Source: Hyphomicrobium sp. (GTDB lineage: Bacteria; Pseudomonadota; Alphaproteobacteria; Rhizobiales; Hyphomicrobiaceae). Taken from it: a stretch of DNA of 64,000 bases. The notes below the pieces were generated by a model that did not search any database, was not told the DNA's origin, and saw nothing but the letters and a program-made list of their open reading frames with translations. The DNA lies in contig JASBSU010000004.1 of assembly GCA_030148725.1 (NCBI GenBank), positions 124,001 through 188,000 on the forward strand, in the 5' to 3' direction. A program made the position numbers and the translations under genes. This document shows, one piece after another, positions 16,984-22,890 of this stretch. Numbering within the stretch: the first letter of the stretch is position 1; each line of letters begins with the position of its first letter.

Positions 16984-19290
16984 ATGGACAAGATCAATCA
17001 ACGCATCGCCACGGAGCTTGGGGTCGCAGAGCGGCAGGTCGCCTCTGCGGTCGAGCTGCTCGGGGAAGGTGCGACCGTTCCGTTCATCGCGCGCTATCGT
17101 AAGGAGAAGACCGGCGGGCTCGACGATACGCAGCTGCGCAAGCTTGAGGAGCGGCTGTCCTATCTGCGCGAGCTTGAGGATCGGCGGAGCAGCGTCCGCA
17201 AGACCATCGAGGGGCTCGGCAAGCTGACGCCGGAGCTGGCGCGCGCCATCGACGGCGCGGCTACCAAAATCGAGCTGGAGGACATCTACGCCCCGTTCAA
17301 GCCGAAGCGGCGGACCAAGGCGCAGATTGCGCGCGAGGCTGGGCTCGAGCAGCTCAGCGAGGCATTGCTGAAAAACCCGCAGCTCGATCCGGCGACGGAA
17401 GCTGCCAAGTACATCGATGCAGAGAAAGGCGTCGCGGACGCAAAGGCGGCTCTCGATGGCGCGCGTCACATTCTCATCGAGCAGATCGCGGAAACGCCGG
17501 CGCTGGTCGGGAATCTTCGCGAATGGTTGTGGGCGGAGGGCGAGCTGAAGTCGGCGGTGCGCAAGGGCAAGAGCGAAGAGGGCGCGAAGTTCGCCGACTA
17601 TTTCGAGTTCGGCCAACGCATCAAGGATATGCCATCGCATCGTGCGCTCGCGATGTTGCGCGGCCTCAATGAAGGCGTGCTGGAGCTCGATCTCGATGTC
17701 GCGCACGAGAAGGGCAAGCCGCATCCCGCCGAGGGACGAATTCGAACCGCGGTCGGAATCCTCGATCGCGGGCGCCCTGCCGATGCGTGGCTCGGCGAAA
17801 CGGTTCACAAAGCCTGGGCGGACAAGCTTTCCGGGTCGCTGCAGACCGGCCTCCTGGCGCGACTGAAGGAACGCGCCGACGCGGAAGCGACTTCCGTGTT
17901 CTCACGTAATCTCAAAGATCTGCTGCTCGCCGCTCCGGCCGGCCCGCGGACGACCATGGGCCTCGATCCCGGCATCCGCACCGGTGTCAAAGTGGCCGTC
18001 GTCGACGCCACGGGCAAACTGCTGGCCACGACGACCATCTATCCGCACGAGCCGCGGCGTGACTGGAACGGATCGCTGGCAACGCTCGCTGCGCTGTGCA
18101 AGCAGCACAAGGTCGATATCGTCAGTGTGGGCAACGGCACGGGTGGGCGCGAGACCGACAAACTGGTCGCCGAGCTGATGTCGAAAATGCCGGACCTGAA
18201 TCTGACGAAGGCGATGGTGTCGGAGGCCGGCGCGTCGGTCTATTCGGCTTCCGAACTTGCGGCGAAAGAGTTCCCCGATCTCGATGTCAGTCTGCGCGGT
18301 GCGGTCTCGATTGCGCGGCGCCTGCAGGATCCGCTGGCCGAACTCGTCAAGATCGAGCCGAAGGCTATCGGTGTCGGCCAGTACCAGCACGACGTCGACC
18401 AGAGCGGACTTGCACGGTCGCTCGACGCGGTGGTGGAGGATTGCGTCAACTCGGTGGGCGTGGACGTCAACATGGCGTCGGCGCCGCTGCTGTCGCGCGT
18501 GTCGGGTCTCAACCAGACGCTGGCGTCAAATATCGTGGCGTTTCGCGACGAGAACGGTGCCTTCAAGTCGCGCGCGGCGCTGAAGAAGGTGCCGCGGCTC
18601 GGTGCAAAGGCATTCGAACAGGCCGCGGGGTTCCTGCGCATCATGAACGGCAGCAATCCGCTCGATGCCTCGGCGGTGCATCCGGAAGCGTACGTCGTCG
18701 TCGAGAAGATCGCGGATGCGACCAAGCGCCCGCTCAAGTCGATCATAGGCGACAAGGCGTTTCTGAAGTCGCTGAAGCCGGCGCAATTCGCCGATGAGGC
18801 ATTCGGTGTTCCGACCGTCACGGACATTCTGGCGGAGCTCGAGAAGCCGGGCCGCGATCCGCGACCGGAATTCAAGACGGCGACGTTCCAGGAGGGCGTC
18901 GACAGCATCACCGACCTCAAACCCGGCATGCAGCTGGAAGGCGTTGTCACCAACGTTGCCGCGTTTGGCGCGTTCGTCGACGTCGGCGTGCATCAGGACG
19001 GGCTCGTGCACATCTCCGAGCTGGCCGACCGGTTCGTGAAAGATCCGCACGAGATCGTCAAAGCGGGTGACGTGGTGAAGGTGCGCGTCAAGGAGGTCGA
19101 TGTGCCGCGTAAGCGTATCGCGCTGACGATGAAGTCGGGCGCGATCGACACGGTGGGTTCTGGGGGTCGGCCGGCAACGGCATCACCGGCGCCGCGAGGC
19201 GGTGCACAGGTGCCTCGCCCGGGTTCGCAGGCGCCGGCTGAGAGCGCACTCGCCGCCGCGCTGCGACGTGCTCAGGAAAAGGGGAATTGA
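16984..19290 (+). CDS. tex: Tex family transcription accessory protein / S1 RNA-binding protein
   Basis: 768 aa; GEGATVPFIARYRKEKTGGLDD, TTMGLDPGIRTGVKVAVVD, C-terminal S1 GMQLEGVVTNVAAFGAFVDVGVHQDGLVHISEL. Confidence 0.95.
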   Translation: MDKINQRIATELGVAERQVASAVELLGEGATVPFIARYRKEKTGGLDDTQLRKLEERLSYLRELEDRRSSVRKTIEGLGKLTPELARAIDGAATKIELEDIYAPFKPKRRTKAQIAREAGLEQLSEALLKNPQLDPATEAAKYIDAEKGVADAKAALDGARHILIEQIAETPALVGNLREWLWAEGELKSAVRKGKSEEGAKFADYFEFGQRIKDMPSHRALAMLRGLNEGVLELDLDVAHEKGKPHPAEGRIRTAVGILDRGRPADAWLGETVHKAWADKLSGSLQTGLLARLKERADAEATSVFSRNLKDLLLAAPAGPRTTMGLDPGIRTGVKVAVVDATGKLLATTTIYPHEPRRDWNGSLATLAALCKQHKVDIVSVGNGTGGRETDKLVAELMSKMPDLNLTKAMVSEAGASVYSASELAAKEFPDLDVSLRGAVSIARRLQDPLAELVKIEPKAIGVGQYQHDVDQSGLARSLDAVVEDCVNSVGVDVNMASAPLLSRVSGLNQTLASNIVAFRDENGAFKSRAALKKVPRLGAKAFEQAAGFLRIMNGSNPLDASAVHPEAYVVVEKIADATKRPLKSIIGDKAFLKSLKPAQFADEAFGVPTVTDILAELEKPGRDPRPEFKTATFQEGVDSITDLKPGMQLEGVVTNVAAFGAFVDVGVHQDGLVHISELADRFVKDPHEIVKAGDVVKVRVKEVDVPRKRIALTMKSGAIDTVGSGGRPATASPAPRGGAQVPRPGSQAPAESALAAALRRAQEKGN

Positions 19291-19661
19291 GGTCTGAGCC
19301 GGCGGCGGTCGATCCGCCCGGCGCCAACTGGGTGGCTCAAGGCGCCCTTGCGTCCGTGGGCCGTGCCCTCAGGCTGGCATCGCGACTTTCGGTGTTGCTC
19401 ACAGGCAGTGCGCGGCCTCCAGCTTGATAAGCATGCCTGTTGCTGCGTCTCGACATCTGGACCCGCCGATGGCATTGCGGAAGCGGCTACACGGATCGCC
19501 CGAAGGCCTCGAAGACATTCTTTGACGCTGTGTGGCGGCCCTGGTACCGCGCTATGCCTTTTTGAACGTTGGGATTGCCCGCCGAAGCGATCTCGAAACA
19601 GTTCGGCGTTAGGGATCACGAGCCAAACCGGCTATCGTTACGTCTCCCCTTCGGCATCCTA

Positions 19662-20951
19662 TTATTTTTTGATGTCTAACCGGCTCTCCGAACGAAAGAC
19701 AAGGGTGAAGAAATATTTAAGATTTTTGGACGGCGCAGCCGCGACCTCCGGAAATGGCTTAGGAAACGGAGCCGCACTGCCGACAATCTTCAACGCAATT
19801 TCGTCGAGTTGCGGGTTTCCAGAACTGGTCTCTATGGCGCGTCGCGCCACGTTGCCTTGATCATCGAGCAGAAGTAGCACTCGCGCTCGGCCAGCGGCAG
19901 GGGCAATAGTCGACTGCATGTTGCGATTGACCAGCTGCGTGATGGCTCGGGCGTAAACATCTCCCGCGTCCCGCGTCTCCGACAGATCTATCCGTTCGGA
20001 CACCACGACCGGGTCAATGCCTTCATTCGCTGAAAATGTAGGAAACGGCTTCGATCTCTCCACGGCGTCAAGCACTACACGATCCGTGCCAGTAGGCCCA
20101 TCAATTTGGCGCACGCTGATGTCTACCAATTCACCGTTTGGTGCAATTGTCAGGTTTAGATAAACTATCCCGCTCTTTACGACCACGTTTGAGAGTATCC
20201 TCGCCACGGCACTACCTGCGTACGTACGGCGGTGCTCAAGACTCCCTCGCGGCCGATTCTTTATTCCAGCGATTGCCGCCCAGTCGAAGGTCCACACTAC
20301 CGACTTCCATAACTCGTAATGGGACGGTGGCAGCTTAAACGGTGCACATTCTCTGACAGCGCGTACTGATGCTTCAGCAGCAAGCAAATAGACGCCATTG
20401 TCTTGTTCGTTCACCAAACTGACATCGCCATTCAGTTCGCCATCGGGATTGAGTCTGAATTTTACGTGCACTGATGGAAGATCACTTCCGCCGGTTTCCG
20501 GAACACGTGCGCACAGTTTCAACTGCCTGCTAATGGCATTCAACACATCGTCGATTCCCTGAACCGTCTGTGTCTCGCGCTTGGCCGCGAGCAGAGCTGC
20601 GACCTGGTCCGGGTCGAACTTTTTTGCCGCCTTAGGTTGATCCCTTGCGTCCTCGCGGACGAGCTTAACGGTCTTGTAGCCCACCCGCGACAAACCCAAG
20701 ACCAGTGATTTTACCGTCGCATCCGGCGTTTTGGAATCGCGAACCTTGACGTAGATCGTTTGATCCAAATCTGAACCTAGCCCGAGTATGAACTTGGGGA
20801 CATCGGCGACTGCCAGTACTTGCGTCGCGACCAACGCCTCCTTGTCTGACACGATGATAATGCTGAGGCCATCACCGGCAGCCTCAGCGCCGACAATACA
20901 AATTGCAAACCACCCGCACCAGGCTGCAGCAAAGTCTCTCATATAATTCAT
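19662..20951 (-). CDS. exported protein with an apparent ExbD-like periplasmic domain and three TonB/TolA-C-like modules
   Basis: 429 aa; signal peptide, then LSIIIVSDKEALVAT...TIYVKVRDSKTPDATVKSLVLGLSRVGYKTVKLV, then three segments of the form [VH]VxFxLxPDGEL...AVRECAPFKLP. Confidence 0.6.
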   Translation of the reverse strand: MNYMRDFAAAWCGWFAICIVGAEAAGDGLSIIIVSDKEALVATQVLAVADVPKFILGLGSDLDQTIYVKVRDSKTPDATVKSLVLGLSRVGYKTVKLVREDARDQPKAAKKFDPDQVAALLAAKRETQTVQGIDDVLNAISRQLKLCARVPETGGSDLPSVHVKFRLNPDGELNGDVSLVNEQDNGVYLLAAEASVRAVRECAPFKLPPSHYELWKSVVWTFDWAAIAGIKNRPRGSLEHRRTYAGSAVARILSNVVVKSGIVYLNLTIAPNGELVDISVRQIDGPTGTDRVVLDAVERSKPFPTFSANEGIDPVVVSERIDLSETRDAGDVYARAITQLVNRNMQSTIAPAAGRARVLLLLDDQGNVARRAIETSSGNPQLDEIALKIVGSAAPFPKPFPEVAAAPSKNLKYFFTLVFRSESRLDIKK

Positions 20952-21086
20952 GCGGCGAAAATCTCACGGCTTCCTGGGCGACAAAGTTGGATCACTAAGG
21001 CGGGCACCTAATTCCTGCTTAGCACTCACCCAGCGAGGCATTGGGCTTCTCAACACGTCTGTGAACATTGTCGAAAAGCGTTTCCA

Positions 21087-21557
21087 CTATCCGCGTGTAA
21101 CTCGCGGTCCCACAAATTGGATAATCTCATCGGCCGAGATGGCGTCGGGCGGCGCTGTCTGGCCCGGCGCCAGTGTCAAGACGCGGATATATGTGTCCTC
21201 ACCCGGCTTGATGATCGGCGTGACCGTGGCCGGCGAGTAAGTCGTTGAGGCGGTGTTTCCGTAGAATGTCGTATTAGCGTGTCCTGGGTTTACGAATGCC
21301 CCTTCCCTGGTCGCATCTTGCGCGCTGACGATCCTGAAGTGTGTCCCACCGTTGGCCTTGGTGGTCTCTGCCGCCTTCAGCATCGTGTAGTCTTGGACTT
21401 GGGTTCGTCCGGTGTAGCCGTTGCCGCGAGAGACGATGCGATAGGTGTCAGCCGTCATTTGCTGAGCCGCAACGCCACCCGAGAAGCCCATTTCCTGATA
21501 GGGGGTGGAGCACGCTGCAAGGGCGAGAACAGCTAGGCAATAGATTGTTGGGCGCAT
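21087..21557 (-). CDS. small lipoprotein (CC0125/CC1285-like)
   Basis: MRPTIYCLAVLALAACSTPYQEMGFSGGVAAQQMTADTYRIVSRGNGYTG...; lipobox LAAC; start moved to 21557 from the 184-aa ORF. Confidence 0.75.
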   Translation of the reverse strand: MRPTIYCLAVLALAACSTPYQEMGFSGGVAAQQMTADTYRIVSRGNGYTGRTQVQDYTMLKAAETTKANGGTHFRIVSAQDATREGAFVNPGHANTTFYGNTASTTYSPATVTPIIKPGEDTYIRVLTLAPGQTAPPDAISADEIIQFVGPRVTRG

Positions 21558-21873
21558 GGAAAATTCCCGAATTGAATATTGCCATCGTAGCTCCCTGGCC
21601 GCTGTGCTGAAATAGCGGTGAAGGCACAGTCCAGAAAACACTTAGGATAAAGCTGGCCGAGATTCAGGTTCGTCCACCTTGAAGGATCTCACGAAGCATC
21701 TTTTCAAACTGCACCTTGGATTCCGTCAGGTCGGTGTGCGTCATGCGATGGTGCTCCAGGCTCTGTCGAATCGTCGGCGCTGAATTTAACGCCCGCACCT
21801 TGAGCCCCTTGCGTCAATGGTGCAGAGCATCCCGTCCTGCTTTTCAACGGCGAAGCGCGTTCACCGAACCGCT

Positions 21874-22110
21874 CTAAGCGATGCTCTTCCGCTCGGCTTT
21901 CGTCATAGGCGTTTGCAGCGCCCACTCGACACCGTTACCGAACGCGTGGCTTGCGACTTCAGCGATGGCTTGCTGGATCAGCTTCGGCAACTCCCGCCGC
22001 AAGGCTGCGTTGAAGATATCCATTGCGGTATCTTCACAGGCGCCCTGGGCATTGAAAAACGCGTCTCCGATGTCAGGACGCCGCGCAACAGTCTTAGACT
22101 TTCTCGTCAT
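21874..22110 (-). CDS. small hypothetical protein
   Basis: 78 aa MTRKSKTVARRPDIGDAFFNAQGACEDTAMDIFNAALRRELPKLIQQAIAEVASHAFGNGVEWALQTPMTKAERKSIA. Confidence 0.5.
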   Translation of the reverse strand: MTRKSKTVARRPDIGDAFFNAQGACEDTAMDIFNAALRRELPKLIQQAIAEVASHAFGNGVEWALQTPMTKAERKSIA

Positions 22111-22148
22111 CAGACCCCCCGTTTCCCGTCGCGTTCCGGTTTATGCGC

Positions 22149-22379
22149 TCATTCACCCGGCACTCGCCCTAGCTTTTTCGCGAGGAATTGCGCCCCCAAT
22201 TCCAGTATATCGGTTTCGTCGTAATCCCCTGACCCTTGGGGAAAAACGTATTGCGTCAGCAGGCTCGGCGGAGCCTCAAAGAACCACATCCTTGCAGACG
22301 TCGGGTAGTGCTCAGCCATATGCCGGTCGACGATAATGAATTCTTCGAGCGCCGGGCGGCGCGTAGCGATTTTGTTCAT
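22149..22379 (-). CDS. small hypothetical protein
   Basis: 76 aa MNKIATRRPALEEFIIVDRHMAEHYPTSARMWFFEAPPSLLTQYVFPQGSGDYDETDILELGAQFLAKKLGRVPGE; SD-like gaggccg upstream. Confidence 0.5.
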   Translation of the reverse strand: MNKIATRRPALEEFIIVDRHMAEHYPTSARMWFFEAPPSLLTQYVFPQGSGDYDETDILELGAQFLAKKLGRVPGE

Positions 22380-22846
22380 GGTGATCGGCCTCCGGTGTCA
22401 GTCACCGAGAGTTGTCTGAATCGGAAAGACCAGCCGAGAGACTTCCACGTACGTGAGCGAACGGTCAGAGCCGGCCGAGCCCCGCACGCAACCGGCGCAT
22501 CACCACGTCAACGGGTGAGAAGCCATCACCGAGCGGCAACCGCGACGTCTCCAATCCCATTGATGGCCCCGCTGGGGGAGCTTTCTCCCTGCATTGTGTA
22601 CTCGGCTTCATTGGCACCGGCAGAAAGCACGGCAGCGCGAGCGCGTAGACGTTGGCCGCCCGCACCGTGCCAAGGTAGCGCTCGACGCCGCCATGCCACG
22701 GGCTCATACGTTCGATCAGACGGCGGCAGATGCGGCGCGTGATGGCAGCTTGGCCGCCTCGAGCCGGCGCAGGGAAAACGGTGAGGTGCTTCGCGCTTCA
22801 GAACAACTGACCGGCGTGTGCTAGCAACGTGTACTAGCAGCGCCTT

Positions 22847-22890
22847 TTATGGCGCCGTAAGCCACTGATTATGGCGCCGTAAGCCACTGA
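22847..22890. repeat. perfect 2 x 22-bp tandem direct repeat
   Basis: ttatggcgccgtaagccactga repeated twice head to tail, about 21 bp from the tRNA-Gln 3' end. Confidence 0.95.

Follow-up and report, generated by a model that had tools for sequence, protein, structure and literature searches.

In a 64,000-nucleotide stretch of Hyphomicrobium DNA (the window), a single gene encodes P0001, a 429-residue protein assembled from parts of both the Tol and the Ton systems. Several lines of evidence, strong for most of the chain, identify P0001 as a mosaic: a probable signal peptide leads into a probable ExbD/TolR-type domain, followed by a TolA C-terminal domain (CTD) with the end of TolA domain II, and then by two tandem TonB CTDs. 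The novelty of P0001 is this new combination of known domains. The features of the gene and its surroundings are collected in Table 1.

Table 1. Features of the P0001 gene and its surroundings (window coordinates).
Feature	Position	Strand	Basis and remarks
Whole gene, P0001	19662..20951	-	Orphan multi-module protein, probably exported, 429 aa; the sole full-length match in all genome searches is P0001 itself
Probable signal peptide, residues 1-25 (MNYMRDFAAAWCGWFAICIVGAEA/AG)	20877..20951	-	Read from sequence and hydropathy
Probable ExbD/TolR-type periplasmic domain, residues 27-100	20652..20873	-	Alignment-free AlphaFold and Foldseek; full-length model; alignment to own TolR
Remnant of TolA domain II end, residues 107-124 (KAAKKFDPDQVAALLAAK)	20580..20633	-	Corresponds to KNKFDADKIAALLDK, which directly precedes the CTD in own TolA
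Module 1, TolA domain III, residues 133-232, Cys147 and Cys202	20256..20555	-	Identity to own TolA, tree, Foldseek, kept columns
Module 2, TonB C-terminal domain, residues 236-323	19983..20246	-	In-frame TonB_2 match; nearest own C22 TonB, z 12.8; H-E-E-H-E model
Module 3, TonB C-terminal domain, residues 329-421	19689..19967	-	TonB_C over cut-off; z about 14 to own TonBs; H-E-E-H-E model
Lipoprotein, CC0125/CC1285 family	21087..21557	-	NCBIfam NF047637, E 3.6e-18; upstream, same strand, 135-bp gap to the P0001 gene
Genome-specific low-GC block	19291..22880	.	Lies between tex and tRNA-Gln; GC about 0.52-0.63, against about 0.65

The coordinates of the open reading frame given in the initial annotation proved exact, and all of the peptides quoted there are present in the translation; to these we add the strand, which is minus (20951..19662). 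The frame opens with ATG and contains no internal stop. At the N-terminus of P0001, a hydrophobic core and an AEA-AG site indicate that residues 1-25 are a probable signal peptide; because the n-region is only weakly charged, the same residues may alternatively form a short anchor. In a full-length AlphaFold model, all four modules are predicted to fold, with short linkers of at most about 30 residues between them (the alignment behind this model consists of TolA rows, without TolR rows). A Foldseek search with the full model returned TolA domain III, TonB-CTD/HasB and ExbD in one match list.

The clearest of the modules is module 1, which is 50% identical to the TolA encoded in the same genome (G000:C36, L062:6578-7645; E 1.6e-30) and matches every TolA of the genus similarly well. 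Among named genomes, the closest TolA sequences are those of H. sulfonivorans, sp. D-2, sp. NDB2Meth4 and SB8. The match to TolA also takes in, upstream of the CTD, the KFDxDxxAALL motif with which TolA domain II ends. A maximum-likelihood tree nests module 1 within the TolA clade of its Hyphomicrobium group (support 97/94) on a long branch (1.52), and the module carries the C-A-R and FDW features common to the TolA proteins of that group. Conservation is concentrated in the TolA core: 15 of 21 near-invariant columns are retained, versus 12 of 45 variable ones, and both TolA-domain cysteines are present. The module is confidently modelled (pLDDT mostly 86-97), and Foldseek pairs it with TolA domain III structures 1lr0 and 2x9a at a probability of 1.00. 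Judged from these comparisons, it is strongly supported that module 1 is a homologue of TolA domain III, derived from the tolA of its own lineage. That core TolA residues and both cysteines have been kept at 50% identity points to selection that maintains a folded domain in the periplasm.

Modules 2 and 3 are TonB-type. Pfam assigns TonB_2 to P0001 in three stretches (E 7.9e-17) and TonB_C in two (E 3.5e-12), while the NCBIfam models tonB_Cterm and tolA_full match at 1.2e-16 and 5.7e-16, respectively. Each of the two modules is modelled by AlphaFold as a helix-strand-strand-helix-strand unit. Both are nearest to TonB proteins of the same genome (z about 13-14 with the C22 TonB) and barely similar to TolA; with a mutual z of about 4, they are not close copies of one another. 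A phmmer search of PDB sequences gave chance matches to beta-trefoil designs and a weak match to HasB only. The assignment of the three C-terminal modules as TonB_C/TolA-C domains is beyond chance: the three such modules originally proposed are recovered by Pfam, NCBIfam, AlphaFold and Foldseek alike, TonB_C/TolA-C folds being found in both model and structure search, and can now be refined to one TolA CTD and two TonB CTDs.

The N-terminal domain is harder to place. An alignment-free AlphaFold model (pLDDT 67, pTM 0.53) gives the order beta-beta-alpha-beta-alpha-beta, and the same elements reappear in the full-length model. When the N-terminal model was compared with 350,542 PDB chains, the top Foldseek match was ExbD (8vgc; probability 0.92), and ExbD/TolR entries took ranks 1, 3, 5, 9, 23 and 33. 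The best E-value in this list is a weak 0.095 and unrelated folds are mixed in, which is why we call the ExbD/TolR fold of residues 27-100 probable, as a prediction from modelling. The domain aligns end to end and with few gaps to the TolR of the same genome, at marginal similarity (shuffle p 0.004, z 3.9), and corresponds to a TolR core truncated of its flanking strands. By sequence profile the assignment is weak: Pfam returned no match for the domain, and a TolR HMM scored 5.7 bits, which is within the range of shuffles and not significant. The ExbD-like N-terminal domain of the initial annotation is thus backed by structure prediction and by the alignment to TolR, and not by Pfam or the TolR HMM.

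Tol-Pal and Ton are regarded as two distinct machines whose transducers are anchored in the membrane and carry one CTD, as TonB normally does. Several parts of these machines were searched for in P0001 and not found: (i) the SHLS motor-binding motif (residues 1-26 contain no histidine, whereas TolA of the same genome reads SFVGHALLL there), (ii) the transpore helix of ExbD/TolR with its conserved proton-binding Asp, (iii) an extended proline-rich or helical, periplasm-spanning domain II (the TolA-like part begins at the very end of domain II), and (iv) a D-box strand. P0001 shares with TolA the sequence identity, cysteine pair and fold of module 1 and its upstream motif, but lacks the SHLS transmembrane helix, the D-box strand and the long domain II, and carries three further domains. 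With the TolR/ExbD periplasmic domain it has in common the predicted fold and strand/helix order; unlike tolR and exbD, its gene does not lie beside tolQ or exbB. With TonB proteins such as the C22 TonB it shares the TonB_C/TonB_2 domains, but in tandem, and without anchor or proline-rich linker.

These differences weigh on the possibility that P0001 is an active adaptor, in which the ExbD/TolR-like domain would hetero-dimerise with the TolR or ExbD of a motor, so that the driven CTDs serve several outer-membrane partners. ExbD/TolR periplasmic domains do dimerise (PMC10907165, PMC8928145), but with neither transpore helix and proton-binding Asp, nor SHLS helix, nor extended domain II—and with short linkers—we regard such a role as highly improbable.

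The architecture of P0001 was surveyed in 8 genomes of the genus, 103 of the family, 398 of the order and 385 sampled across the class, and in phage, plasmid and IMG/VR sequences. None of 60 relatives, the 103 family genomes or the 385 class genomes yielded a full-length homologue; an initial scan of genome contigs with the whole of P0001 as query gave no match, and nor did the plasmid, phage and IMG/VR searches. Separate searches with the N-terminal and module 2-3 segments in the 398 order genomes recovered nothing of the architecture, and a TonB_2 scan of the 60 relatives revealed no second ORF with two well-separated TonB_2 domains. Candidate matches were rejected as follows. A putative second full-length homologue, G001:C14 (residues 92-206 and 66-103), is antisense to an RND efflux gene. 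Weak N-terminal matches were obtained in order genomes (G141, G143 and others); those inspected (L128, GrpE-like, and L131) are chance matches or unrelated frames. Matches to modules 2 and 3 in relatives, checked singly, are ordinary TonBs or secreted single TonB_C proteins. No natural TolR-TolA or ExbD-TonB fusion was found in the open-access literature. Fusions of other kinds, TolB-Pal and PorE, are reported in a 2025 survey of the evolution of Tol/Ton systems, and passages of that survey describe no TolR-TolA-TonB mosaic of the P0001 type (PMC12204202). PorE, a CpoB-TolB-Pal fusion of Bacteroidetes, resembles P0001 in that several Tol-Pal parts are naturally fused in one periplasmic chain, but is described there as a lipoprotein of outer-membrane-side parts, without TolR, TolA or TonB modules (PMC12204202).

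The contig is genuine Hyphomicrobium chromosome, and the P0001 gene lies in a 3.6-kb block for which the seven other genomes of the genus gave no match. The sides of the block are shared: tex was found in four congeners (80-83% DNA identity), and tRNA-Gln with an M15 peptidase gene in all seven (70-75% and more). None of the neighbours that the tex locus (16984-19290) has in the window lies within about 5 kb of tex in the four congeners (L068-L071); the junction at tex has therefore been rearranged here. Integration of an element at tRNA-Gln was considered and rejected: the tRNA 3' end does not recur near tex, and no att-like repeat was found. A 22-nt unit (TTATGGCGCCGTAAGCCACTGA) stands in perfect tandem duplication at 22847-22890, just downstream of the tRNA-Gln 3' end. 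The block also holds small unannotated minus-strand ORFs, for example near 22400-22160 and 22110-21870, and the CC0125/CC1285-family lipoprotein gene, a possible transcriptional partner of the P0001 gene.

A gene at such a breakpoint could be a functionless by-product of rearrangement, neutral or decaying. Its occurrence in one genome, its low GC3 (0.57, against about 0.8), the synteny break between tex and tRNA-Gln, the long branch of module 1 and the lack of a good ribosome-binding site immediately 5' of the ATG are all in keeping with this. Against it, 1,287 bases are open in the P0001 frame, where each of the other five frames has 11-23 stops; about 50% divergence has spared near-invariant positions of the TolA core as well as both cysteines; and the four modules are all predicted to fold. 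On balance, we think it unlikely that the gene is neutral. A young gene that matters little could likewise show the low GC3 and the restriction to one species, and P0001, known from one genome, has no orthologue for a cross-species selection test.

How might such a protein have arisen, and what might it do? The TolR-like to TolA-like order of P0001 is that of tolR-tolA in the tol operon, and the simplest origin is therefore a shortened duplicate of this part of the operon. We infer that a tolR-tolA piece was duplicated, that the TolR helix and most of tolA were lost, and that TonB CTDs were added. Each module would keep a beta-sheet edge for its partner: the TolA CTD for TolB, the TonB CTDs for TonB boxes, and the ExbD/TolR-type domain for D-boxes. 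Such contacts are known from the parent systems. The TolA CTD and the TonB CTD bind TolB and TonB boxes, respectively, by beta-strand augmentation (PMC8928145); the ExbD homodimer recruits the D-box of TonB as a beta-strand, and a D-box-like strand is present in TolA (PMC10907165). No module of P0001 appears to be coupled to a proton-driven motor, and partner sites would therefore be occupied passively. The reading that we favour, tentatively, is that P0001 acts in the periplasm as a passive, multivalent competitor for Tol/Ton contacts, or as a modulator of them, and would dampen or re-set Tol-Pal and Ton traffic or else shield the contacts from the colicins and phages that exploit them. A precedent is the reported inhibition of TonB-dependent siderophore transport in E. 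coli by a soluble periplasmic TonB domain (Howard et al. 2001, cited in PMC9769762). A more specific version, in which one chain engages the partners of both systems simultaneously and so links outer-membrane stabilisation to TonB-dependent uptake, or damps the two together, with no input of energy, is more doubtful. The soluble or periplasmic decoy, adaptor or modulator suggested by the initial annotation is compatible with the absence of anchor parts and with what is known of the biology; decoy, tether and adaptor are computationally indistinguishable.

Next after the competitor we place a peptidoglycan-anchored tether or scaffold. The truncated ExbD/TolR-type domain may bind peptidoglycan instead of D-boxes, in which case the string of CTDs would hold TolB/Pal or TonB-dependent transporters near the cell wall, adding a static link between outer membrane and wall rather than competition. 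Peptidoglycan binding has been proposed for the conformation that doubly truncated TolR takes (PMC8928145), ExbD associates transiently with glycan chains (PMC10771500), and the N-terminal domain of P0001 matches a truncated TolR core. ExbD-peptidoglycan binding is, however, weak as well as transient, and the divergence of P0001 is too high for peptidoglycan-binding residues to be traced; we consider a tether somewhat unlikely.

P0001 could also have evolved chiefly as a decoy, soaking up phage coat proteins or bacteriocins that enter via TolA-CTD, TonB-CTD or ExbD/TolR. The TolA CTD is a co-receptor of filamentous phage g3p and colicins (PDB matches 2x9a, 3qdr and 4g7x), and the low-GC block around the gene is variable; yet no defence genes were identified among its neighbours, a combination of TolR, TolA and TonB would be unneeded, and no cases are known, so that this origin appears very unlikely. 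Competitor and tether are each more likely than a young functionless chimera, a decoy against phages and colicins, or an active adaptor.

If the competitor reading is true, cells can evolve passive multivalent modulators of Tol/Ton contacts from gripping domains alone. With TolR-, TolA- and TonB-type modules united in a single soluble chain, P0001 would then serve further as a natural reagent for testing the effects of competition on outer-membrane stability, nutrient uptake, and phage and colicin entry.

Simpler secreted proteins with one such domain exist among relatives, and count in favour of the competitor reading. The genus has secreted proteins with a single TonB_C domain (L063:3731-3276, L152, L160 and L167); these are exported without an obvious anchor, as P0001 probably is, but contain no TolA or TolR parts. 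The first of these, in the same genome as P0001 (L063:3276-3731, minus strand), is an apparently exported protein of 151 aa encoded directly downstream of exbB-exbD-tonB. In Filomicrobium sp. ih4, a secreted TolA-CTD-only paralogue lies between tolA and tolB (L173:2880-3488, plus strand; the same as L104). It shares with P0001 an apparent signal peptide, the domain II end and a TolA CTD, but is an independent case: a single CTD inside the tol operon, without ExbD/TolR or TonB modules. This separate occurrence suggests that such parts arise repeatedly in Hyphomicrobiaceae. The Filomicrobium gene is apparently translationally coupled to tolA, and was not seen in the other tol loci examined. Finally, L150 and L151 have an STN-like N-terminus joined to a TonB_C-like C-terminus.
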